Assembly: GCF_964204645.1 (NCBI RefSeq) | Contig: NC_134028.1 | Location: 806,001 to 870,000, forward strand | Source: Tubulanus polymorphus | Lineage: Eukaryota > Nemertea > Palaeonemertea > Tubulaniformes > Tubulanidae | Direction of reading: 5' to 3' | DNA length: 64,000 bases | In this document: piece by piece, positions 261 to 61,829 of the stretch | How positions within the stretch are numbered: position 1 is the stretch's first letter | How the letters are laid out: every line of letters begins with the position of its first letter | The notes under the pieces: model-generated | What the model saw: only the letters and a program-made list of their open reading frames with translations | Database searches by the model: none | Told to the model about the DNA's origin: nothing | Translations under genes and position numbers: made by a program

Positions 261-3200
261 TGGCTTGAGTCAGAGTAGACAGCTTTAAACGCGGTTACAA
301 TAAGACCGAGACCTGATTTATCCAGATACGGCGAAGTCCACATCGTTTCATTCAGAATTCCTGAACTATCGACTAAATATTCAAAATAGTTTGACATCTG
401 TTTAATGACGTCATTATCATGTTTAGTGACCGGTATAAATAAACCACCTCCGGAACAAGCCAGTTCACTGAGTAGAGCAATGTTTTGAGCATTAGTCAGG
501 AAGGTGAATACTTTTATCTGAAACACATAATAAAGATGCATGATTAGATGAGTGCAATGTGTGAAACAGTAGCCGTATAGTTTATTAGATACTTACATCA
601 TCTTTAATCACTCGATGATTTTCATGAACAAGTTTTAGAAGTTGTTTATATCTATAACGACAAACTTCACCCGGGACGTATCTACGTCTGCTGTGACCGT
701 CGTAACGATGGTAACCTAGACAATGACAACAATACCACAATAAAACGTACGGGTATGTCACTAAAGCAGTCAATAGCACTGGAATTTGTGACGGTGTATA
801 GTTTTTAAGTAGCTCATTTAGAGAACTTGGTAGCCCAGCCCGGTAGTCTGACCCGGCAGCCCAGCCCGGTAGTCTGACCCGGCAGCCCAGCCCAGACTCC
901 TGGCCCTAAGCGGTACCATACCTGGATCACATCTCTGTAAACCATCAGAATCATCACCATCTCCAACAAATAATATCAACATCAACTGTTGCTGCTGACA
1001 ACCAGATTTCTGTTGTTTGTGTAACAGTTTATAAGCCATTTTAAACGCAGCCCTTGAGTAAAAATAAAGAAAAACATTCAATTAATTTCTGTACAACACG
1101 TACTCATGTCCCTACGGAAGTTAACTTAACCATCCGGACCCATAGTCCCACAGTTGTGAGTTAAGATTTGACTCAGAGTTAACTCTAACTCATCTATCAA
1201 CTGGCTTACTTAAACCGACTTTATATCAACTGACCCCTGATGGAGTGTACACGGTACTCACAGATGATCAGATCCACCCTTAGCTTCAATTGAATTAATT
1301 CTTGAAAGTAAATCTCTCCGATGACTCGACGTCGCGGACAGCATTCGATGACCTTGACAACTGAGCACTTCCGGGTCATGGTCAACTTTTCCCCCACTCG
1401 TCTTGTAATAAAATGACCTTGACACGATGACGCTGACTAAATCTGACTTCGTTAAAGTTTCAATGAGCGCACTGGCAATTTTCTTCATACGAGAAAGTCT
1501 GAAATTAATCATATAACAATTCAACTCCGTGGTGGTAGACAGGGATCCACTGTGGTGGTTGATACTATATTCATTCACTATCAATTGTGACAAGTGATAG
1601 ATCCAGTCCTGTGATACCGGTAGATAGACCCAGTCCAGTTGATTCAGTCTAGTCCAGTGTTAAGGGTAGCGGTAGTCTGATCAGACAACCTTTTATGGGC
1701 TATTATAACCCAATAATATCAGACAGGTTAACAGTTGTTGTTTTAGGGACAACAGCTTTAGTTCCTGGTGATCAAGTCCCCTTCTAATAGTGAGGGGATG
1801 ATACCTAGTAAGATAAGGGATAATAATAGATGGTTTTAGATACTAGTTGCGCATTGCTTACCCATTGTTATATGACATAGAAAAACTTCCATCTAAAATG
1901 ATGACTAAATTCTTTGGTCCCGAAGTGGCGGACACATACCACGGTCTTGTACGGGGGTCGAAATCTTCTTTAAAACCGATGAAATTATTCTGCCATTCTC
2001 TACCGGGGTATTGTCTACTAACACCAGTTACTGAACCAAAATACTGCCATCTAACAACAAGAATCAGAGATCAGCTGATAAGTTACAAAAGACAAGTTAC
2101 AAAAGTTCAGTTGAAATACTATTTATTGGAATGGGGATATTTGTGTTCAGTGCTTGAATCATCAGTATCTGCTCTTCTGATTACATCATTTTATGGAAAA
2201 ATTGAAAGCTTAATTATTTTTTCTGGAATCAAATTATGGTAATAAGGAGAGGTATGGAAGAGGCTGTAGTGGATGAGGTGATAAAGTGGATGCAGTGCAG
2301 ACTGCTCACTTGACTGAGAATAAATCAATTCAATTACTTTATGAGCATAGAATGGATCAATACATTTACATAATCAATAACTACTGATGATTGAATCAAT
2401 AAATAGATGTTTATACAGTGAGATATAGTATCTAACTGACTGATTGTGAGTGTGCAGTGTATCAATCAGCTTCATACACTATATAGGCCGAGCAGTTGCA
2501 GTGTGTGTGGAGGGAGGGGGGTATCTGTTAAAATCCTATAAGTGCCTACATTTCTGGTCGCCTAAGATGTGATTCATCATTAGGAAAAAAGGCAACAACA
2601 ATCAGTTGATTTGGGTACTCAAAATCAATATTTTTCTATAAATCTATCGTTAGTGAAATACTATCTTATTGTTCTGAGTTTAAGTGTAAGTTTGTTTGAT
2701 CATGTTATTGTCTTCACTATGATACAATATAAGGTTGATAGGGTATGATTTGACAGTCACCTCGCCCGACTGGTGACTAATTAGCTGTAGCCTATTGACT
2801 GAGTAACTGTAGTCACCACACCTGAGTGGTCACCAAGGCACACAGGTCAACCCTAAGCAGACAAACTTCCCGAGTCAGTCACCAGAGCTCAGTGGTCTAG
2901 GGGTTTGGACAGTGGACTGGCAAGTAAGGGACCCAGGTTCAAATCCCAGAGGGGCTGAAGGGTTAGCATTAGCGATGACCTAGGGTTAGGGTTAGCAATG
3001 ACCTGGGGTTATTTTGACTGATCCTTTGGTCCAGATGACACCAGTTTGGCATAAAATTTTGAATTTTTTGATTTTGTAAATTCCTAGCAATGGACTGCTG
3101 ATATTTGACCGAGATAGCACATGGACTCTTCAACTGGTTCAAAGTGTATTTATGATCTGATCCCAGTGATCGAGAGACGTCTGTCTGTATCCATCCAATC

Positions 3201-5942
3201 CAATAGCAGACCAGAAAATATAATCTCACAGGAAAAACAGAATATTGATATCTTACACAAACACGACGAGATTTATTCATTTATCTCAATACAACGTAGA
3301 ATATCAGAGAGCCTAGTATAGTGTACATACATAGAAACACACTCTACACACTTAGAACTCGGATTTTCAATAAGTCTGTTTATGATTAATGGTAGCGTTT
3401 AAATGAGTTATAAATGAACTCTTAAATGTGCAGAGATAAAAACCATTTCATCAACACTCAGTCAAACAGAGTTATCAATATCAATTATAGTTCTTATATT
3501 AATTATAGTTATAATATTTAATGTATTTAATAAAAGATGATATTATTATAGTAAAAACATTAGCCGCAGTAAACTGTACCGACTACAGGTACCGGTATAT
3601 CAGACTCACATGAGAGTAATGGACTATGTTATAGCAGGTACTGGTATATCAGACTCACATGAGAGTTATGGACTACTGGTATATCTAACACAAAACCCTC
3701 ACAAAAACATTCTATGATTTATAATGAATTAAATGCAAAAAGCTAAAACTCCTCAAATGCTGTAACTCAAAATCTCCATCAGTCACTCATTCAACAGCTA
3801 AAAGCTTTCTATAGCTGTTTTTATAAGTAGGGGTCATTCATTTATTACGTACGCATTAGGGGAGGGGGAGGGGGTCAGTGCAATTGCGTACTGTAATGCT
3901 TAATGTATATGAAAAAATGTCCGATTTTGCGTACAGAGGGGGAGGGGAGTTGAAAAATTCAAATTTTATGCACACGTAACAAATGAATGATCCCGTAATC
4001 GATATAAATGCTGTAAGCCACAACAAAACAATCAGATGTTAGTTGAATGTAAGTTATGATCTGTGAATGAATTCAATGAGTTTTAAACTCACTGTAACAG
4101 TGTTAAGCCGATGGATTCAATGAGTTTTAAGCTCACCTGATGTCGTTGTTTATTTGTATATTTGATTGGAAAGTTTTATCTAATTTTGACGTCCAGTTGA
4201 CAGTGTTTATCACATAAGGGTCCGAGCGACTAACATCATCAGGAATCTTAACAGAGCTTGAATTCCACATAACAGGCCAACGAAACTTACTGAAAATACA
4301 ACATGTCAATGAAAAATAACTAATCATTTAATAAAGAGTTGTTCAAAATAAAGTTACAGTTTAACTTGTGTTGAATTATCATTTCAATAAGTTGTCACAC
4401 TGACACTGAAGGTTATTTTGAGTCTCGATCTGTATTTCTAATTCAATTTACTTAATGTAAGTCATTTTGAGGTCCTCACCTCAATGACTGTCACAACTAT
4501 ACGACTTAAGCACTTGTTTGATTGTGGTACAAGCCCCCAGCCTGTAAGGAGTAATGTATTACTCATTACAGGCTGGGACTCAAAATGGGTACTCCAGACC
4601 AGCTGGGTTCTTAGAGGTCACTTACTCGTTTGATTGAAGCCATCCTCGAGGAAATGCTAAAGAATCATCGGCATCAATGAATACATGTTGAGGTAAATTT
4701 TTTAATGACGATTGTTGATGATCAGTAAGTTCTGTAGAATGTATACGTTTTACTGCTTCACTCAATTCATCTACAGCTTTTAACTGACCCTTAAAAAAAT
4801 TCTCTGAAACAAACAACAAACAAACAGTGATTAGAATACAATCGATTAAACAAGTTTTATCGAATTCAATTTAGTCTTAAATTACATATAGATATATAGC
4901 ATGGATAGAGTTAAAAGACTTAAAATCAAGTCTTGAAATAACTTCTTTAGAATAAGCTACAACTATCAGATATTCTAAGATACGAACCTAGTTTAGTTTG
5001 AATATCGTGAATGACTCGTGAAGCGTTTTTAAAACGACTGAAATATTTCGCCTCAGAATAAACCGACTGAATCTGATCGTCGAACATCGTCGATTCAGAG
5101 ACAGACGTCAGGTCACGTGATATCTCTTTTGACCAATCAGAGACGTTTATACTCGACGCATGAACCGGTGAAAATAGAGACAGTAAAATGATCACAAAGA
5201 ATACGAGCTCCGCGACACTTCCTCGTACGCCCCATCCTCGTCCACTGCTGCTTGATCGACCATTTTCATTATTGCGTTTCGTGAATTGTTTTAAAGTCAT
5301 TGTTGGCGTTGTATCCACGGAGATGAGAGCGATACAGATTGATATAACGATGATTTCGATGGATAAGTTGTACCCGCTACGAGCCGAACCGTTATAAACA
5401 TCCTCCATCTGATGATTAAAACATCTCTTATCATTACCGACCTCGAAACGTCGACTCTCGCAGAATTTACGTCCGTTGTCGTAGAGATCGCGGATTACCG
5501 AACCTTTCAAGATGGCCGACTTACAGACGTTATAGAACGCGTCGCAGAACGGTTCACAGACCGTCAGACGCTCGCGACGATAGAATTTATTCTGATCCGG
5601 AGCGCAGATATAACACATGAGATAGTTTAAATACCTCAGACACGCGGGAGACGCACCTTGTAGAGGTTTCACTTTCACAAACGTCGAGTCTATTTCACGT
5701 TGTAAACAGCAGCTATTCGCGCGGAACCACGTACAGTTTTTTAACTCCGGTTGAGGAGTCGGAGCTCGATTGTTAAAGAATGAACACCACTGGTCGGATT
5801 TAGATTTTTTGGCGGCTGAAGCCGGAATAACGGAATATTGAGTGATTTTGTCTCCTCTCATCGGAGTCAAACTGATGAGGATTGCTATGAGTAATACAGG
5901 ACACCAGGATAACATCACTACAGACCCGGACCAACCCATCAT
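261..5942 (-). CDS. CACNA2D-like: Voltage-gated calcium channel alpha2/delta subunit with N-terminal folate-receptor-like domain (partial, 3' end off window)
   Basis: Exons on the minus strand: 5942-4988, 4803-4626, 4289-4137, 2050-1862, 1498-1262, 1052-922, 778-597, 517-261. Phases chain without a stop for about 760 codons, then the gene leaves the left edge. Alpha2/delta subunits are extracellular, membrane-anchored partners that traffic and modulate CaV channels. From about residue 262 the protein follows the family: a VSDW...SRDL start, NWTSKLD in the VWA_N region, DPRTRPWY before the VWA domain, a DGSFS MIDAS motif (DxSxS), and KVFTFL followed by a TSPYLD segment. The first exon adds a signal peptide, a Cys-rich folate-receptor-like domain (about 52-175), a hydrophobic segment (about 192-209), a basic loop and a second hydrophobic segment (about 242-260). 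The start is the first ATG of an ATGATG pair after a CT-rich 5' leader. CACHD1 is a related alternative, but the NWTSKLD and PRTRPWY motifs fit alpha2/delta better. Confidence 0.85.
829..895. repeat. 26-bp tandem repeat in alpha2/delta intron
   Basis: About 2.5 copies of a GC-rich unit containing CCCAGCCCGGTAGTCTGACC lie in the intron between the exons ending at 922 and starting at 778. The copies are nearly identical, so the array is recent. Confidence 0.8.
2755..2965 (+). mobile_element. tRNA-derived SINE, copy 1
   Basis: A tRNA-like part runs from about 2885 to 2962, with an A-box-like segment (AGTGGTCTAGGGG) and a B-box (GGTTCAAATCC). It is preceded by a stretch rich in GTCACCA motifs. 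The same order (GTCACCA stretch, then A-box, then B-box) recurs in reverse at 51900-52120, which makes this an interspersed family and not a functional tRNA. It lies in the large intron between alpha2/delta exons 3 and 4. Confidence 0.65.
3575..3690. repeat. Tandem duplication, about 65-70 bp unit
   Basis: Two and a partial third copy of a unit containing GGTATATCAGACTCACATGA, followed by GAGAGT and a nearby GGACTA, occur in an alpha2/delta intron. Confidence 0.7.
3828..3998. mobile_element. MITE-like element with terminal inverted repeats
   Basis: The left end reads GGGGTCATTCATTTATTACG and the right end is nearly its reverse complement (from GTAACAAATGAATGATCCC), with about 170 bp between the outer ends. 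The interior has G-rich runs and no ORF. This is the layout of a non-autonomous DNA transposon. I did not resolve the target-site duplication. Confidence 0.6.
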
Positions 5943-6500
5943 CTCTCTCTCTCTCTTCTCTCTCTCTCTCTACGTCTCTCACTAATCTCTTCTTATCCGT
6001 AACTTAGAATATTCCTACTACCTGTAAAAACATAAAAAACTCTAGAGACTACAGTCCGCGCCTAAGTGTAAAAACCCTTTATTTCTTTATCTTGACCTGT
6101 TATAGTGTTTCTATTGCTTATCACTAGTTTTATTTTGGGATTGGCAATAACATTAGTCATAATCACATAAACAATGAACACTAAATACCGGGTTGGGCTA
6201 GGGTTGTTAATAAACAAGTGTGATGAGGCTCCCCAACCCACAGTCACCAATCAATAAATAATAATGCTGGATGGAATGGATGATAAGGTGTCAGGTGATG
6301 CTGGCTCTGGCTGCTGCTGCTGCTGGGGCCGGGGGTTTTATTTGGTCTCCTTACCTAAATTGTCTTGCGCTGAAAACCTGTCCATCATTTAGATATCAGT
6401 CTCAACCCGTGTAGAATATCGGATACATTCAAATAAATACTGGAGAATTCTCTGTATCATCAGCTGTCAAAATCACAATACACTGACCGACGACTTCATC
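5943..6500. other. Alpha2/delta 5' leader and upstream region, no gene seen
   Basis: A CT-rich run at 5941-5985 (GA on the minus strand) is probably the 5' leader of the alpha2/delta transcript. The rest, to the TMEM220 promoter, contains a GCTGCTGCTGCTG microsatellite near 6311 and no credible coding sequence. Confidence 0.5.
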
Positions 6501-6577: not shown

Positions 6578-8606
6578 ATGACAGGTCGGTTAACAGTGTG
6601 ATTATCAGCAGGGGTTTTATTGAAACGGAGTCGAGGAATGAGTTAGCGAACACAGTAGTGTGTACAGCTAGCTTTATCAGTCAGTGATACAGGGGGAGGA
6701 GAGGGGAGGGAGGGGGAGAGGGGGCTAGCAGTGTCAGTGACGACAAGTCAGTTTGACAATTCAATTCAATTATCAATCTAGCAAAAAGTAAAGGCTTGAA
6801 GGAGGCTATGGTGTAGGGATGTTGTCAGGTTTATACCCACCAATCAGCAGCCAGTTTACCCTCACACAGGCTCAGACTGTCCCACTGATGGGTGGCAAGT
6901 TTAAATCCACTGTCACGTTATCGGGTTATTTTGGGGGCCAACCGGCAGCATGAAATTGAAGGGTTAATATGAATTATAATTGCAGATACCGCGAGAACGA
7001 CTCCGAGTCAGGAATATTCATATTACCCATTATCAACATCGGAGAATGATCCACATTCCGGTTCCACCGTTCCACGTGTGGATGACAGCAAATGGAAATG
7101 GATTTGGAGAGCTACTAATTTATTGATGTCGATATTTTTTGTACTGGCGGCTTACGTTCAGATCAACGATCCTGATCCATATATCTGGATTCCTGTCTAT
7201 CTGATACCGGCTTTATTTACATTATCAATTACAATCACACCTAAAATAACAGGTACGGCTATAACAGAGAAACATTATCATTGTTGTGAGAATTCCATCA
7301 ATAATTGAGGGAATTATTATCTCATGTGGGATTTCTCTTGTATATTCATGTTGACTGAAATTCATATTTAGCCTAACAGATAGTCTATTGACAGGAAACC
7401 AGGGTCCTCACAGATCAGGGAAAATTGGGAAATTCGGATTCTTTTCATCAAACTTGTTCTTACTGGTGACAGAAATAGCTCCCTCTCTGAGGATATCTCG
7501 TAATCTAATCAGGGAATTTCTGATCCCTGCTATACCATACATTCATACACCTTCAAGTACAGTAAAACAGGACATTATTTGATTATTTTGTAGATAATAA
7601 AGTTTGGAAGGTTGCTATAATAATTCATATAGCTATCAGTATTGCGGGAGCGATGTATTTATTAGCTGTAGTCATCGAAATGTTGAGTTTAAATCTATCG
7701 AATCCACTTCAACACGAAGAAGGAAGGTAAACTAATTATATTCAACATTTTTGCACAAATGATTTTAGATGATTTTAAATGTTTGATTATGATGCAGATT
7801 TTGAGCCTGGTTGGCTGTATGTTAGTTTCTTAACTATGCAGAGTTTTGAATTGTTTCTTCATCTTATTTCAGAGAATTATCAGGACTTGTGATTGTAATT
7901 ATCTGGCTGACGCTCTGTCGATTTTCTCCACTTGGAAGGTAACTTTTCAGGCACTGTTTCATAAACATAGATAATAAGTAGCTCTGCCACTTTGAACCCA
8001 ATTCTGAAGTTGTGAGTTAAGATTTGACTCATGTTTTAAACTCTATAATCAAACTTACTTCAAAGACATTTATGGGTCCTGATATACAATGTTTAATGAA
8101 GATACTTTGGTTAGATTTACCAGAGAGCCATGCATGGTTCTATGATTGTATTTGTTTTGTATTTCAGTAATGAACCAGGTCATGGTTCTATGATTGTATT
8201 TGTTTTGTATTTCAGTAATGAACCAGGTCATGGTTTTATGATTGTATTTGTTTTGTATTTCAGTAATGAACCAGGTCATGGTTCCATGATTGTATTTGTT
8301 TTGTATTTCAGTAATGAACCAGCTCGTGGTTCTATGATTGTATTTGTTTTGTATTTCAGTAATGAACCAGGTCGTGGTTCTATGATTGTATTTGTTTTGT
8401 ATTTCAGTAATGAACCAGGTCATGGTTCCATGATTGTATTTGTTTTGTATTTCAGTAATGAACCAGGTCGTGGTTCTATGAATGCGTTGATTTTACTCAC
8501 CGGCACGCTCGGTACTATCCCGCTGATTTTCTGGTCGCTATGTTTTATCAGTGATTGGCATAAGAGAATTGGACATTGTAAAGACATGTTTCCTGATTGG
8601 AAATGA
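6578..8606 (+). CDS. TMEM220: Transmembrane protein 220 homologue
   Basis: Exons 6578-6584, 6986-7252, 7594-7726, 7873-7938 and 8456-8606 give 207 codons plus stop. TMEM220 is a small multi-pass membrane protein of unclear molecular function. Recognisable blocks are the first membrane segment with YVQINDPDP, the following VYLIPALFTL, the RELSGLVIVIIWLTLC segment and the last helix PLIFWSLCF. An N-terminal extension of about 35 residues before DDSKWKW is longer than in vertebrates. The first coding exon would be only 7 nt (ATGACAG, then a GTCGGT donor), chosen because it restores a frame-compatible Met right behind the promoter; it is the least certain exon. The last exon's acceptor lies at the end of a 48-bp repeat in which each unit carries its own in-frame acceptor. 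Confidence 0.85.
8133..8468 (+). repeat. Seven tandem 48-bp units, each carrying a splice acceptor and exon start
   Basis: Each unit contains TTTTGTATTTCAG followed by TAATGAACCAGG. These are the polypyrimidine-AG acceptor and the first codons (S-N-E-P-G) of the last TMEM220 exon. Acceptors lie at 8168 + 48n, the last giving the exon start at 8456. As 48 is divisible by three and no unit contains a stop in this frame, every acceptor is frame-compatible. Confidence 0.95.
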
Positions 8607-42661: not shown

Positions 42662-42692
42662 TTAGTGTCTGTTTTGATTCTGAACATTTCGA

Positions 42693-42753
<61 letters not shown>

Positions 42754-45700
42754 GATGAGTATTAGCGGTTGGATTGTTGTCTCTTGCTTTCAAATCGATA
42801 GATGAGAACGTGTAGAGAATGGGGTTAATAGCCGAGTTGATGGGTAAGATAACTACAGCTACTACAGCTGCCCAGGTCGGGGCTATGAATATCCCACAAA
42901 CAGCCAATATACCCAGCACTATCACCGGTACCCAACATACTATTTGCGTCAGAAATATGGGCATCAACCTACGCGCCAGAAATAGTTCGGTCTCGTTGCA
43001 TCTTCCCGATGTCTGACGGGACTTCTTCACCGTGTTGTAAATGATGAGATAAGCGATGATGATTCCGACAGTGCAAACAGAGTTAAATACTACATATATA
43101 CCGAAGGAGTAACCCCAAGCCTTTACATCAATCGAGCGCAGGTTCACTGGTAAACACACTCCTGCCTGGCCGTAGAAATTAGTGAAATATCTCACCGGTA
43201 GGAGGGGTAATATGGCTATCATGAAACATAACGTCCAAACACCGGTTGATAACGCCAGCGACAACCGAATCGGAAACCACTCGCCAACTTTTAAGAAACA
43301 GAGTTTAATCGCTCGTTCAAGCGAAATCAATAACATGAATATTAATGAGCCTTCCGACGCGACCGTTATGAAAAAACCTGCTAATTTGCATAACGCCCCC
43401 TGGCGCCATTCTTCGGAATAGATCATATAGACGCCTTTATAGAAGAGATCGGCTGCAGCGATCAATATCAGATAAACACCCATCAATAAATCACCGATAG
43501 CTAAATTTATGGTGAAAATTATCGAAGCGCTTTTCTTTTTGTCGACAAGTCGCCAGACGATTACAAACGTGTTACCGACGAACGCAATAATGCCGACAAT
43601 CCAAACCATGACTCTGAGGAATCCACTGGCGATCAGGTCGTCACATGACGAAAATTCATCAGCTTCCGGTAAACAAGATTTAGTCTGAGGAGCTAGACAA
43701 CAGAATTTGAACGAATCGCTGACCAATTCAATCAGAGATTCGATTTTATTCAAACTATCGATTTCAACGTCAACGATCCAGTTTTGGCGGAGGTCGAGAC
43801 TCTCAAGATGAGGGAGACCAATAAACGTCAGTGCACTTAATGATTCCAGTTTATTTCTGCTGATATTTATAGAGGTGAGTTTGACCAGACCGCTGAATGC
43901 TTCATCGCCTATTGTACTGATTTCCAACTGTTCCAGATGTAGATTTTCAATCGAGACCAAACCTCGGAACGCGTTAGATGAAATAACAGCGAGTGGATTC
44001 CCGTCTAGGGAGAGATGTCGTAGATTAGTGAGTCCGTAGAACGTGCCTTCATACAGAGCATCGATCGCGTTAAAACTCACGTCCAGATAGAATAGATTAT
44101 GTAGAGCTGAAAACACCGATTTGAATAAGTTTTGGACGCGATTGAATGAAATATCTAACTTCCCTAAAAATCGATACTCGCTGAATAGATCTGTATTATT
44201 TGTAACATTGAGACTGATGTTTGAGAAGGAAAGGGTGCGAATTTCCGGATACAAATAACTAACGGTTTTACACGTGACGCTCAAACCAACACACTCGCAG
44301 CTGATTGGACATTCGCCCATATCGCAGAATATTTCATCGTCTCTCATTGGACAGTTCACCGTGACGTCACAAACCCGCGTATCAGTAACGCAGGAGTCCG
44401 AGCCTCTACATCTCAAACGACCTTGACACTTGTGCCGCTTACCGCAGTCGCGTTCGTCGTAGCCTGCGACGCAATCCCAAACACCGTTACAGACCTTATA
44501 GTAGGGAATACAATACGACGCGGGACATTTAAACATCGCCGGAGGACATTCGAAATCATCGCAATGCAGTAGATTCTCCATTCTATTACATACAGATTTA
44601 TTCAAAGCTCGCATTTCAAAAATGCAGCTCATTTCACGCGGGAAACATTGAGGCGAGGTGGACGAGCATCTTATATCAGTGGTCGCATTCAGACAGGTGC
44701 CGGAGTTATTGATAGAATTAGATTCATCTTCACCAGTCACACCGGGACAATCTACGATACTGTCATTCACCAGATCTGAGTGGATACAATCACCGTTAAA
44801 ACACTGGAAACCTTTACAACGGTTGAACAGCCCGCATCCGCGCTCATCAGAACCATCAAAACAATCGACTAAACCATCACAGAACTTAGTCTCACTGATA
44901 CACTGCTCGTTCGTACACCGGAACTCGTCCGGGTCGCAGTCCGGATACTTACAACTGTATTCGTCACTTCCGTCAGCGCAGTCGGTCACGTGATCACAGT
45001 AGGATGAGATAGAGATGCATTGCGTACCGGAATCACAGTTAAACTGATTCCAACCACAAGTGCAGTTTAATTCATCCTCACCGGACGGACAATCAGCCAC
45101 CGAATCACAAACTCGTATATTCAAAACACAAGAACCGTCGTCACATTCGAACTGATTTTGGGAATCGCATTTTAGTATCAGGGAGTCCACGTGGTCTTCG
45201 CAAAGGACGCCGGTTATTTTGGGCATGGATTCATCGCCGCAAGCGCCGCGATAAACAATTCCCGTAGCGGCTCCTTGTGATAGTACAATACATCCACCGT
45301 TAGAATCATTGCTGAAAGCTACAACATTGCCATCAACTTTCAACGTTAAGAATAGATTGACCAGTTGTGAAATATCGCTGATGATGGATATATTCGCCAC
45401 GGAGCCACCGAGACCTCGACAGACATTAGAGAAATTACGATCAGGATTCGTGATAGAGAAAACATTGAGACAACGAGAAACACTGAAAATCCAGCCGGGT
45501 TTACAAGCGAATATATCAGTCGAGAGGGAGGAGTTATCAGTGATAGTTTGATTGACGTCGGTATTTGGAACGACATCGAGTTTACAAAATAAAGCAGTTT
45601 TGATTTTATATTCGCACGGAAACATGGCCCAGTTGGCTTTACCGTACGGGGTAGACAACTGCATAATCGAACAAACAGTGGAATCATCACGAACTGGTTG

Positions 45701-48700
45701 ATACCTCTTCACAGGCACGAAACTCGTCAGTCCTGGGTGAAGGGTCTCGTTAAATGTTGGCTGATACCATTCAGTGTAAGACAGTGGACTTCCATCAGAC
45801 CAGATAAAACGCTTCAACTATAAATATACAAACACATTGAACTATACAATGGTTTCTTTATGATCAGGAGGCGGGCGGCTCCGGGGTAGCCTATACCATT
45901 TAAATCAATGAAAATGAACAGAATTTAACTGAGAGTTGTTGATAAATCTTACTGGAAACTGGGTTGTTTGGGGCAACTCCGTGAAATGGTCTAAAGTTTC
46001 TAACACGTATCATGTCTTGTATCACTTTGTTTCACGCGTATTCTATGAAGAGACACCTCAGCTGATACTGACCTGTTTCTCATATCTAAGACCGATGTAT
46101 ATAAGTGGTATATGTAGCCGGTATAGTTGGTTGATCCAGTGTCGGGTGAGTAGATATTTGAATCGTTCAGATTGAGAACGGGATGTTATACTCATTAGTT
46201 CACCGCGACTGTCGTTATTACGACAAAGTTCCATCGCTGAAGTCCACGAAATGTTGCCAGTTGTTTCTATGAATGCGATGCATTCGTTTCGCTCAAACCG
46301 CTGATAACCGTCTGGGCAAATGTCACTTTTTACATCTTCGTTATCTTTCTTGCGATGTTTTTCGTAATTGATAATGACGTCTTGTTCGCGGTGAAAATTA
46401 TTCAATCTGATTTCGAGGGTTGAATGAGCGAACGGTATCGTGTGCAACACAGCGCCCTCTTTCGCCTTTCCGCAAAACCTTCGGCGATGAATGACGTCAT
46501 CAACTACGTATTCACTGAGTTGCACGAACGAGTCCTCACACTTTCCCAATACGAATTTAACGATGTTGAATTTGTAGTAGAATTCCGAGTAGGAATCCCA
46601 GATTTCCATAAACGACATCGAGAAAATGTAGTAGCATGTTTCGGGTGACTGGCCATACGTTCTGGATATGATGCCACAGTTTTCAGTATCTATGATGAAG
46701 CCTGCCCAACCACCCGGACTACTCCCGCATTTCTACAATAGAAATTTAAGAATTTTCAAAATGTCAGATTAAAGAGTTGCAAGATGGCGCACGATCGATA
46801 CATACTGGTTTTATTCGTAGTGAATATATTTCGATGAAATTTGAACTGGTATTTTATAGGCTCCCAAATCAAAATATCATAAAACAAGTCATTGAACAGA
46901 CAAACGAATTGACTTTCTCACTCCCAGTGTATGGTATAGATTTAACTGTTAATTTGTATTGAAAAAATTTTATTAGGATTCAACTGACATATTGAAGAAA
47001 TTGAGCGCTACCACTAGCGCACCTGGTGGATCCACACTCGCCACAGTAGCATCTTTTACTTACCATTTCAAGTGAGCATTTATTACGTAGTTCAAATTCC
47101 CATTGGCCATATTTGGTAAGACAGGATTTCTGATCGAGAGTCGCGTAGGATAATTCAGTAAGGTTGCCACCAGGGGTCGCTGGGCTGCTGCATCGTGTAC
47201 TATTATGCGGCCACAGTTCGGAACAATCCAAGCGTCTTAACGTCCCGTGGGAACTATACTGGCATTCACCTAAACTATTGCATAAACAAGCTGTAAAACT
47301 CGTGTAGGATGAGCCGCAATGGAGAGAACTTCGAACCGCTGTTAGTTCTAACCCTGATTTATTGTCGAACGCCAGTTTAATTAGAGATTGATTTCTGGGT
47401 GGTGGATGGGTAGTGAGGTGTATGTTCTGTATTCTATAACAGCTTTGTCCCGCCTCCATATTTACAATGACGTCTTGTTCAGTTTCCGATGTAGTTAGGA
47501 ATATACCTTTACAAGGAACTGTTTTGTGTTTTATTTCAAAACTACTTTTGTATCGGTAAGAATAGATAAAAATGATCACGGAGTTATAAGATGACGTCAT
47601 TTTCAGTTGAGGCAAACCTTCGTGCGCATTAGCGGCACAAAATGGACCTAAAGCTGTCGCGCTGGAGTTCACGTCTGCACCGTCGATGACGTAGGCGCCG
47701 ATCTGTTCGCATGGTTTACTAAGGGTCGATTCCGGTTGAAAACTCAAAGCTACATCTACAAAATAACTGGGATGTTTTGCGTGTATTGCGATAGCGCAGA
47801 GGGTAAAGTCGTTCTTCTCACAATTACCGATAGACCCGAGTCCATCATAGAATCCACATGAACACGAAAAGGGCTTCTGATTTGTGACAGAAAATGATCC
47901 GTGTTGTTTCCTCCAACCTATCGACACAATTATTCCGGTATCGGACACGTTTCCGATCCGATTCAGCGGGACTCTGAACGCGACCAAAACCCGAAATCCT
48001 TCAGTTTTAGATGTACCATTCAGTGATTGGAGAAGCATATTTTTTGTAGCAAACAAAGACGGCGAAATTTCAACATCAAACTCGCTGAAGTGTAAACTAG
48101 TCTGGGTCGGGTCTACTTCAATAGATGTGCGCCATGATAGTTCGAAATTCTCTCTCACATCTGCGTGCAGGATGAATCCATACATGGCATGGGCGTCAGT
48201 TATTATATCCGGCATCAGATTCGCTGTGAAATCAAAATGATCAGAGACATGCGTGTCTACAGAACGGATTGTCTGACGAACTGTCGTAAACATCCACTTG
48301 TTACTGGGGATATCAGTTATCAGTATAGAGATATCAACACCGTGTTCACTACACAGCGGAAAAAAGGTAAATTCTAACGAAATATAATCTGCCACGACAC
48401 TCCACGGCTTTCTGATACCAGTAAACTGTCCGATTTCTGTACCATTAGCCGCAGTTAGTACTAGTACATTCATATTGACAGACATTTCTCTGGGTATTGG
48501 ACACAGTAGAAAACGTAGAAATGTGATATTCAACGAGTTCAACGATTCGAAAGGGCGTAGCTCAGCTTTATAGACGAGCACGTCTTTTGTTATGAGATGA
48601 TGGATATCGATATAATGCGGTCCAACTTCGATATCTCTGTGAATTTCTTCGTGAAATATCTGAAATGTGTTTCGCACGAACTCGACGAGTATAATAAATC

Positions 48701-49085
48701 TTGATTTCGAGGACGAGCGAAATATGACGTCATAACGCGTCATGAAAGCCACGCTCGACGTCACTTCCGTTTCTGTGTCGTTACCGATTATCTTACGCAG
48801 GGAGTTTGAACGATCGTTTTTAGCGCCGCCGTAATCATCATTAATGTTAATTTTTACTCTCAATCCATGTGTCGTATTTGAGTTGATTTTCCAAACGCAT
48901 TCGACATCGTCGCGTTCAGCAGTTTCGGGTTTAGACTGCAGTAACACCGCCGGTTGAATCAGCCTACTAACCATTAACACTTTACCGTCGCATAAATCGA
49001 TTTCTGTTTTGTTATTGACTGATAGTGCAGGATCGGCAGATGGACCACACGTCTGTTCTACTTTACCTTCATTATTACACGATAC

Positions 49086-49127
<42 letters not shown>

Positions 49128-49160
49128 TAGCGACAACAGCCGCATCGGTAGTTTCATCAC
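42662..49160 (-). CDS. Large GRL101-like receptor: CUB, C-type lectin, LDLa, LRR and 7TM
   Basis: Coding exons 49157-47064 (exon starts 49160), 46732-46073 and 45817-42662 are all phase 0 and give 1969 aa. A non-coding first exon probably ends at 49947 (donor GTAAGT). Order: poly-Leu signal peptide; about 700 extracellular residues with a CUB-like region near the start; a CUB domain (about 699-830); a C-type lectin-like domain across exons 2-3 (ICPDGYQRFERNEC to FCKL) and a second, divergent one; about seven LDLa repeats (about 1133-1416, with DGSDE signatures); an LRR N-cap and about six LRRs (1421-1623); a Cys hinge; a class A 7TM (about 1651-1924) with ERA in place of DRY and an intact NPILY; and a tail with 20 Ala. 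LDLa-LRR-7TM matches Lymnaea GRL101 and relaxin-type LGRs. The ligand is unknown. Confidence 0.9.
42693..42750 (-). repeat. GCC repeat encoding poly-Ala in the receptor tail
   Basis: About nineteen GGC triplets on the plus strand read as Ala codons on the minus strand, close to the C-terminus of the receptor. Confidence 0.93.
49083..49130 (-). repeat. CTG repeat encoding poly-Leu in the receptor signal peptide
   Basis: About fifteen CAG triplets on the plus strand (one CAA) read as Leu codons and make up the hydrophobic core of the signal peptide. Confidence 0.9.
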
Positions 49161-49946
49161 CTGGAATAAAATCATTCATTCTAACGCCTTTATTTAATCT
49201 GGTTCTATAACATATATGGATGAAAAAATCATTCAAACAGAAAACATAAAATCTATCAGAAAATGTACCATTCAATGATCGGAAAAGAGAAGCATATGTC
49301 AGAAAAGAAATCTAATCGATTTGTGTTTCGTATTTCAATTTTCATGGTTTCAATTCGATTATTTCATTTGATTCAGTTAAATGATTGTGAAAATTCATGT
49401 TAATATCACGGAAGAGCATCATAGACATAGATGATTTCTTTTCAAAGCGGATATTTCGATTGTAACAAAGATCAGGTCCGACTTAATCGGAGCAAAATTG
49501 TTGACGATATAAACATGATTGGAAAACAAAATGTTTCAATACTTCATTTGCTTTATTTCTAAATTGTAACTGCGCAAATATTGTATTGTACGCTTATTGT
49601 ATTTTGTTTAAGAGTTGTAAGGACTTAGAATTCGAAATGAAATACATCATTAATTATCAATCGTCAAATCTCGAATAAACCTCGAAAATTAATTGCAGGC
49701 ATCTGCTGCAATAGTTCGAGGTAACATGAGTCCAGCGCTCGCAGTTGGTTCACTGGTTTAACTATATAAAACTATATAGTTTCACGTCCCGCTAAGACAA
49801 TACTTTTTTTCTGAAATACTTGTTTGCTTGATACTTCATAAAATTCTTTTACCCAGCACATCCAGCACCCCCAGCACATCCAGCCACTCCACTGGTTCCG
49901 ACCCCGGATTGTCATCACGACATACAATATCTCTTATTTTACTTAC

Positions 49947-59854: not shown

Positions 59855-60824
59855 ATACATCCGTAAATATTGTATATCTGCAATTTGTCAAAACTATTTT
59901 TTACACGCTTTTTGATGTTTTGATTTTTGATGTTTTGCTTTTTGATGTTTTAAGTGAATATGCTTTAATCAAAGGGTATTATTACATACACGCAATCAGT
60001 CATCAGTCATAAGTCATTAGACATGATAATATATTTATTATTATTGGTAGATTTTGTGGGTAATTTATTTATTTCTGGGACTGTGAAAGATATTATATTT
60101 TTAAAGAATTATTTGCACGGTTATAAATGAAGATTAACATTATTAGTATTATTAGTAATGACCAGAACAACGAACTGTTATATATTATACAGACATATAA
60201 TAAACTTGATTTATATAATTATATGTTTTAATGTTGATATGCAAATTTCTCTCGGATGCTCTTGTTTCATTGGTCCAATCAGACATTTCATTTAATAACC
60301 AAAATGGTCGACAAAAGTAACAATCGAAATCGAAATGATTTCGAAGGTGTTTTGTATAACTAAAAAGCTGATGGTTTTTCAAGTCAAGCTGCTACGAACA
60401 TGGGATATCTTTATCAAAGTGACATGTACGTATAATGAGTGAGTGCATCATTACGGAATAACATTATATATTATGGTACAGAATTCCGGCTTAGGCACTA
60501 ACATTTTATACCAGGCCTTGGACGAAAAAGAATTGACAAAATTTATCAATTATATACAATCTACGTAAAAGATGTTTAATTCAGTATAAAGAAACTATCA
60601 TTGATCCAAAAATCAACATCGAAATTACGATTTATTGATGATTCATGCAACTCTGAGAGTTTCCTTAAAACTCGGACACGAAAAAAATGTATATTCTAAA
60701 TTGAAGAAAAAACCATTCATTAGATCAAATACAAGTATACACGAGTAGTTGACGTTTTAATTCTATTTCTGTGGCAACTGGTTTAACTGATAAGCAAGAA
60801 AGACGTTAAGAATTTGTTCTTGAA
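59855..60824. other. Villin 3' UTR and intergenic DNA
   Basis: AT-rich, with GATGTTTTG repeats near 59910-59950 and no gene seen. It probably holds the villin 3' end (AATAAAC near 60198) and the promoter of the following GPCR. Confidence 0.5.
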
Positions 60825-61829
60825 ATGGATGGAAACATTTCAGATGATGTTTTCATACACATGTTGTCAGCTCGAGTCAGGGTGGCTTTACTATCAGGCG
60901 CTGTTGTATATACGGGCTGCTTTATTGTATTGGGTTTAATCGGTAATACCTTAACGCTGGTTGTAATACCTCGAATTCGTAAACACGTCGGAACGAGGAC
61001 GGTTAATTATCTATTACCATTAGCCGTCTGCGATTCCGTTTGTGTTTGTTCGGTTGGAATCGTCGCCTGCGAAAATATAGCTTTCTTCACCGGTATTCAG
61101 CTACCAGTCCGTATCGCTACTTCTTCTACGATCGCTTGTAAAGTATCGATGACTTTATACAGTACTAGCATCGGAATATCGGCTTGGTTAATTCTACTTT
61201 TTTCGTTTGAAAGAGGCGTCGCCATTTTGTTCCCGATAAATCGAACACTTCACCTTTCACCGCATCAACGACGTGTTCAAATCACTTCCGTTACGATCGC
61301 TTTGTTTTTATTTCTGTCGACAGTTTTTGCGACTGGTTCTAATCTCCGCTATAAAGGACCGAGTTTAGCAATGTGCACGTACGACCCTCATCGCGTTGTC
61401 GCACGTGGTTTTATTCTGGCTTCCCTATCCCTGCTGTTGATGTATGTGGTCCCGTTTTTAGGCTGCACTATCAGTATTTGCATGGTATTCCTAGGAATCA
61501 TCCGCAACCGAACTACAAGCCGCAAAGTCGTTCAGACCTCTACATCGGTATCGTCCAGTGAAAATAAATGTATTCTGAATCTCATTTGCATAATTGTAGT
61601 CTATTTCATATTTATCTTACCGTTTGTAGGGACCACGTTCATTTCATTGGTTGTAATACCCCTTCGCCTAATTGTTAACGTCGGCCCACAATTAATCCAT
61701 ATTTTGAATATCACCGGTCTATTTTCTGTTCTGTTTTCTATCGGAAATAATGCGGTGAATGTGATCATATTCACGTTTACGCTGAAATCGTTTCGCGCCG
61801 AAATTCATTCGTTTTTATTGAGAAAATAA
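60825..61829 (+). CDS. Orphan class A (rhodopsin-like) GPCR, intronless
   Basis: A single uninterrupted frame of 334 aa starts at ATG (TTGAAATGG context) and ends TAA. Seven hydrophobic segments are clear: TM1 with GLIGNTL (conserved Asn), TM2 with NYLLPLAVCDS (LAxxD), a Cys after TIAC at the top of TM3, and TM3 ending FERG in place of DRY. TM6 reads FIFILPF, without the usual CWxP. TM7 has NNAVNVIIF, so NPxxY is changed. A Cys in CTYDP of extracellular loop 2 can pair with the TM3 Cys. The N-terminus has an NIS glycosylation site; the C-tail is very short. It resembles peptide-type receptors expanded in lophotrochozoans. The ligand cannot be inferred. Confidence 0.85.
   Translation: MDGNISDDVFIHMLSARVRVALLSGAVVYTGCFIVLGLIGNTLTLVVIPRIRKHVGTRTVNYLLPLAVCDSVCVCSVGIVACENIAFFTGIQLPVRIATSSTIACKVSMTLYSTSIGISAWLILLFSFERGVAILFPINRTLHLSPHQRRVQITSVTIALFLFLSTVFATGSNLRYKGPSLAMCTYDPHRVVARGFILASLSLLLMYVVPFLGCTISICMVFLGIIRNRTTSRKVVQTSTSVSSSENKCILNLICIIVVYFIFILPFVGTTFISLVVIPLRLIVNVGPQLIHILNITGLFSVLFSIGNNAVNVIIFTFTLKSFRAEIHSFLLRK

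Follow-up and report, generated by a model that had tools for sequence, protein, structure and literature searches.

An open exon of Tubulanus polymorphus in which a folate-receptor-like protein appears to run in frame into an alpha2/delta- and CACHD1-related protein

The window, a stretch of 64,000 nucleotides of Tubulanus polymorphus DNA, carries on its minus strand (5942-4988) a single open exon that encodes a receptor-like protein together with the N-terminus of an alpha2/delta-like protein. The stop-to-stop frame (5969-4947, minus) holds 340 codons, 318 of them between the first Met (5942) and the splice donor at 4988. It ranks third in length among the 2009 open reading frames of at least 20 aa in the window, and the frame stayed open in none of 3000 Markov resamplings of the exon. 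Hydropathy of the exon protein peaks at residues 8-26, 193-211 and 242-260. An earlier, sequence-only reading had placed in one uninterrupted exon a signal peptide, a folate-receptor-like domain, two hydrophobic segments, a basic loop and the start of a mature alpha2/delta protein, and all of these parts were recovered, the last of them as SSINVSDW from residue 263. The features are listed below with residue numbers counted from Met1; splice scores come from generic weight matrices, and a slash marks the splice junction.

6022..6354, minus: predicted 5'UTR intron (donor after 6355, TAG/GTAAGG, 6.0; acceptor before 6021, TTTTTACAG/GTA, 8.2)
5847..5942, minus: first signal peptide, residues 1-32 (Met codons at 5942 and 5939; aligns with the signal peptide of the relative on C7)
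5415..5789, minus: folate-receptor-like domain (FRD), residues 52-176
5310..5366, minus: first hydrophobic segment, residues 193-211 (hydropathy 2.19; placed like the C-terminal segment of the C7 relative)
5298..5300, minus: in-frame Met215 (CCAACAATGAC), possible start of the alpha2/delta-like protein alone
5217..5309, minus: basic loop, residues 212-242, predicted cytosolic (6 K/R against 1 D/E over 212-244)
5157..5216, minus: second hydrophobic segment, residues 243-262, ending VHA (hydropathy 2.3)
4988..5156, minus: N-terminus of the alpha2/delta-like ectodomain, residues 263-318, ending at donor 4988 (TAG/GTTCGT, weak, -0.7)
4626..4803, minus: coding exon 2 (splice model, as for all following exons)
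4137..4289, minus: coding exon 3 (VWA_N, found on the spliced protein)
1862..2050, minus: coding exon 4 (end of VWA_N and start of VWA, with DGSFS)
1262..1498, minus: coding exon 5 (VWA)
922..1052, minus: coding exon 6
597..715, minus: coding exon 7 (5' junction uncertain, with close alternatives)
261..517, minus: coding exon 8 (exons 9-17 lie left of the window, to C4:800865)

Acceptors as strong as the one at 6021 are expected at only 0.013 in the 340 nt upstream, and the exon 5942-4988 is probably the second exon of the mRNA. On the other side of the presumed start lies a divergent neighbour (window 6973-7308, plus) with a TMEM220 match of 51.8 bits (cut-off 27), which perhaps shares its promoter region with the putative C4 fusion gene. 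To the left of the latter, two cadherin-domain ORFs, 494 and 483 codons long and each uninterrupted, lie in tandem at L008 1882-5294 (minus). Further uninterrupted frames occur elsewhere in the window: one of 1051 codons (42662-45817, minus) combines LDL-receptor class A repeats, leucine-rich repeats and a rhodopsin-like 7TM domain, a layout that we take to be that of the snail receptor GRL101; one of 731 codons (46980-49175, minus) has a hydrophobic start, as judged by eye, and no Pfam match at E 0.001; and one of 339 codons (60810-61829, plus) encodes a rhodopsin-like 7TM receptor. The window sequence gave no match in a plasmid collection, an NCBIfam scan returned nothing exceeding its cut-off, and the output of a bacterial promoter scan is meaningless for an animal genome, a character that shows in genes such as the cadherins, the HHIP-like gene, TMEM220 and alpha2/delta.

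The affinity of the first protein is set by its cysteine-rich domain. A Pfam search of the receptor part, which had been proposed together with the sequence-only reading, returned Folate_rec (PF03024) at 62.5 bits against a cut-off of 29.8, spanning residues 55-161 of the exon protein; by the curated cut-off, the domain is a member of this family. The likewise proposed comparison with HHIP also gave a positive result: a profile of three FRDs (the window, C7 and an HHIP-like gene on C1) matched riboflavin-binding protein in the PDB at E 4.8e-8, HHIP at 1.4e-7, a match that owes something to the profile's own HHIP-like C1 row, and Juno at 0.0018. Single-sequence PDB searches are weaker than this profile; with the window exon alone, the best match was an NPC1-related protein (E 0.0033), and with the C7 protein alone there was none up to E 1.

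Homology of the second protein begins inside the exon. With the uncut query, from Met1 to residue 788, the best match to alpha2/delta-1 had an E of 1.2e-33, and the alignment crosses the splice junction between exons 1 and 2. For twelve of 13 alpha2/delta-1 chain sequences the alignment starts at residue 260-263, opposite chain position 26-29, and for the thirteenth (3jbr) at residue 379. The signal peptide of alpha2/delta-1 is 24 residues long, which puts the start of homology just past it; the second hydrophobic segment does lie, as had been suggested, at the place of an alpha2/delta signal peptide. The splice model comprises 17 coding exons and 1419 residues with no internal stop and continues about 5 kb past the left end of the window, ending at C4:800865; exon 15 of the model uses the second-ranked acceptor (8.8 vs 9.0). 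On the spliced protein, VWA_N scores 91.6 bits (cut-off 34.7) and VWA_2 34.6 (cut-off 27), and of the Cache models MCP-like_PDC_1 reaches 45.7 bits (cut-off 27), while dCache_1 stays at 28.7, under its cut-off of 45.

Against alpha2/delta-1 the mature second protein reaches 125.5 bits, and against CACHD1 124.6. No VGCC_alpha2 domain (PF08473) was found in the spliced model at E 0.001, in a scan where the alpha2/delta protein of C11 gives 176 bits. An exon-by-exon genome search for VGCC_alpha2, in which four candidates were scored, gave C11 and one place on C3 and none on C4, a search that can miss split domains and that misses the other C3 relative and the C1 relative. We call the protein alpha2/delta- and CACHD1-related, rather than a channel subunit, because its two scores are equal and VGCC_alpha2 was not found; judged from these matches, it is a VWA-Cache protein of that kinship. 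The earlier view of a receptor ectodomain joined ahead of a whole alpha2/delta frame therefore gains in one respect and loses in another. What precedes, in frame, is itself an apparently complete receptor-like ORF, and each of the two ORFs has its own signal peptide; the label of a calcium-channel subunit, on the other hand, had to be rejected as a settled identity, given the equal CACHD1 score and the missing VGCC_alpha2 domain.

The region between the two proteins is short and composed of recognizable parts. Met215 (5300) precedes residue 243 by 28 residues, as the earlier reading had noted of a Met about that far ahead of the second hydrophobic segment, and its codon has an A at -3. The second hydrophobic segment combines a short core and one Pro with a terminal SPVHA at 262, in which V-H-A takes positions -3 to -1. 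V-H-A (260-262) fits the usual -3, -1 rule for signal peptidase, and the segment is a probable internal signal peptide with putative cleavage after Ala262. Sequons at residues 69, 184, 192, 266 and 306 all fall on predicted lumenal sides, that at 192 touching the membrane segment. When the linker (residues 212-262) was resampled by itself 2000 times, 14% of the copies remained open, although in nearby noncoding DNA only 129 of 3255 overlapping 50-codon windows are open. Its codon score shows little preference for the true frame (0.52 vs 0.45 and 0.44 in the other frames) and exceeds that of noncoding DNA (0 of 333 overlapping windows equally high), making it coding-like in a way that is not frame-specific. 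By its sequence, the exon would appear to abut two whole proteins with no stop in between. Two cistrons on one message can be rejected, as no stop separates them. GPI-anchor signals must be C-terminal, on which ground we also reject GPI anchoring at the first segment within the long protein.

Relatives of both parts were sought in the window's own genome (267.8 Mb, 77 contigs), with matches grouped into loci by hand and all counts being lower bounds. Folate_rec was found at no fewer than five places in at least four loci, and VWA_N at six or more places in at least five; the two domains occur together on C4 only, that is, at one of the five VWA_N loci and one of the four Folate_rec loci found. 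A search with the exon protein, insensitive enough to miss the FRDs of C1 and C5, returned itself and the gene on C7. The latter stands alone, with four coding exons (splice sites chosen by eye, without scores), 199 aa, its own stop codon and a Folate_rec match of 61.6 bits. Its local score against the window FRD is 271 (maximum 52 in 300 shuffles), as compared with 82 for the HHIP-like C1 domain (maximum 49 shuffled) and 68 for a FOLR-like domain on C5 (maximum 52); the two agree at 51 of 124 aligned positions and have 12 of 12 domain cysteines in common. The last C7 residue aligns opposite window residue 211, four codons ahead of Met215; over the hydrophobic segments the alignment follows position and composition, and few residues there are identical. 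The end of C7 probably marks the former end of the first protein; by this alignment, the first ORF appears whole up to that end, and the second could start four codons on, at Met215.

The front part of the C4 gene is probably an inserted receptor copy that later lost its stop codon. The copy may perhaps have arrived via reverse transcription, as the three coding introns of C7 are absent from it. The HHIP-like FRD on C1 is also contained in one exon, in a gene where Folate_rec is followed by GSDH as in HHIP, so that the absence of introns alone is no proof of a retrocopy. As a separate matter, the canonical alpha2/delta gene on C11 (L019 2255-5596, minus) appears as one uninterrupted ORF of 1114 codons, compared with 17 coding exons in its C4 relative; a retrocopy or massive intron loss is possible there.

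What could such an arrangement produce? The sequence itself shows both homologies, the unbroken frame, the abutment and, through the C7 relative, where the first protein probably ended. The best explanation in our view, to which we give about an even chance, is that two complete secretory-pathway proteins lie in one frame and are cut apart at the internal signal peptide in the manner of IGSF1. The main transcript would start upstream of the 5'UTR intron and be translated from Met1; the receptor domain would enter the ER lumen until the first hydrophobic segment stopped the transfer; the basic loop would remain cytosolic, and the translocon would then be re-opened by the former signal peptide. 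Signal peptidase would presumably cut after Ala262, a site suggested by V-H-A and by the start of homology at 260-263, and would leave equal amounts of a receptor-like protein, fixed in the membrane through its own hydrophobic segment, and of a normal alpha2/delta-like protein. One message may in this way make both proteins, in an unusual arrangement known from one genome. We would entertain, with rather less confidence, the wider idea of a cellular polyprotein of two unrelated surface proteins: once a folate-receptor-like copy had lost its stop before an alpha2/delta-like gene, signal peptidase would bring both products in equal amounts to one membrane, and there the receptor part might bind a ligand and act as partner to the VWA-Cache protein.

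Signals within the exon leave room for other products. The stretch from the end of the FRD to exon 2 is free of AATAAA and ATTAAA, which were found at 6083, 5591 and 4706, and from the end of the FRD to the exon donor only one other GT exceeds -2 (5374, -1.8). The FRD is intact and without a stop, so that any receptor product translated here would have to continue into the second protein, unless splicing intervened. In the part that encodes the signal peptide and the FRD, twelve GT sites outscore the weak donor of exon 1, the best at 5657 (5.0; 0.18 expected), and the receptor part may be partially spliced out. A choice between transcripts would go further, with the long message accompanied by a second one, begun or spliced near 5408 or before Met215, that gives only the alpha2/delta-like protein; the longer product may then be the minor one. 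We hold this to be unlikely, if worth serious attention. It draws on an acceptor inside the exon, at 5408, which an in-frame ATG follows at once and whose score of 3.3 falls within the range of the gene's modelled acceptors (1.3-10.3), on the A at -3 of Met215, and on the rodent CTD-only Igsf1 isoform that is begun inside the gene and made beside the long one (PMC9162367). Yet by chance the exon should contain 0.72 acceptors of like strength, and the receptor domain, being intact, points to continued production of the long form.

The second hydrophobic segment might also simply span the membrane, leaving an uncut two-pass protein with the receptor as an extra domain. Both segments are hydrophobic enough to span, on a rough scale, and the loop between them is basic; the short core, the Pro and the V-H-A at -3 to -1 speak against it, however, as does a homology that sets in at 260-263 opposite chain 26-29, just past the signal peptide of the relatives. 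Next to signal-peptidase cleavage after VHA, the membrane-segment reading seems the less likely of the two, and we regard the uncut protein as quite improbable. That the proteins are independent neighbours only seemingly fused, through an untranslated or decaying receptor copy or through an assembly error, appears very improbable indeed: while the case rests on one assembly and openness of the linker alone is not rare, the receptor domain has kept 12 of 12 cysteines, neither signal peptide has been lost, and the 17-exon model runs without an internal stop.

If processing at the internal signal peptide is true, the C4 gene would be a second cellular case of its kind, and one drawn from two unrelated genes. 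It would mean that cells can evolve virus-like polyproteins through simple stop-codon loss, and would link the alpha2/delta and CACHD1 superfamily with a domain like that of vitamin receptors. In the open PMC literature, as judged from titles and abstract openings, no paper describing the fusion was found, and papers there on alpha2/delta and CACHD1 evolution and on internal signal peptides do not describe it in the parts so covered.

Each part taken by itself resembles known proteins. The C7 gene is like the C4 front part in its signal peptide, 12 domain cysteines and C-terminal hydrophobic segment, and unlike it in being split into four coding exons and closed by a stop codon. Alpha2/delta and CACHD1 share with the second C4 protein VWA_N, VWA and, by the MCP-like_PDC_1 match, Cache homology along its length, while from alpha2/delta it differs in that the VGCC_alpha2 domain was not found and an extra protein stands in front. 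To our knowledge, HHIP and amphioxus FrLRR have no second signal peptide between their parts, whereas in the C4 fusion the hydrophobic end of the first protein and the signal peptide of the second lie there. In HHIP and in FrLRR (PMC10199209), a folate-receptor domain precedes another ectodomain, as it does on C4. Speaking against the proposed cleavage, a Trypanosoma GP82 signal peptide moved inside the protein was not cut (PMC6513831); in that construct nothing opened the translocon first, unlike in the layout proposed for C4.

The closest parallel is IGSF1 of mammals, for which PMC9162367 describes co-translational cutting by signal peptidase at an internal signal peptide and proposes an origin from a gene copy placed before one whose signal peptide was retained; its authors in 2022 were aware of no other cellular protein processed in this way. 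Its halves are duplicates of each other, whereas the C4 parts are two unrelated proteins, and the cleavage reported there is predicted here. IGSF1 is like the C4 exon in its order of signal peptide, ectodomain, membrane segment, short cytosolic loop, internal signal peptide and ectodomain, an order that on C4 lies within one ORF, with the topology as predicted from its sequence.
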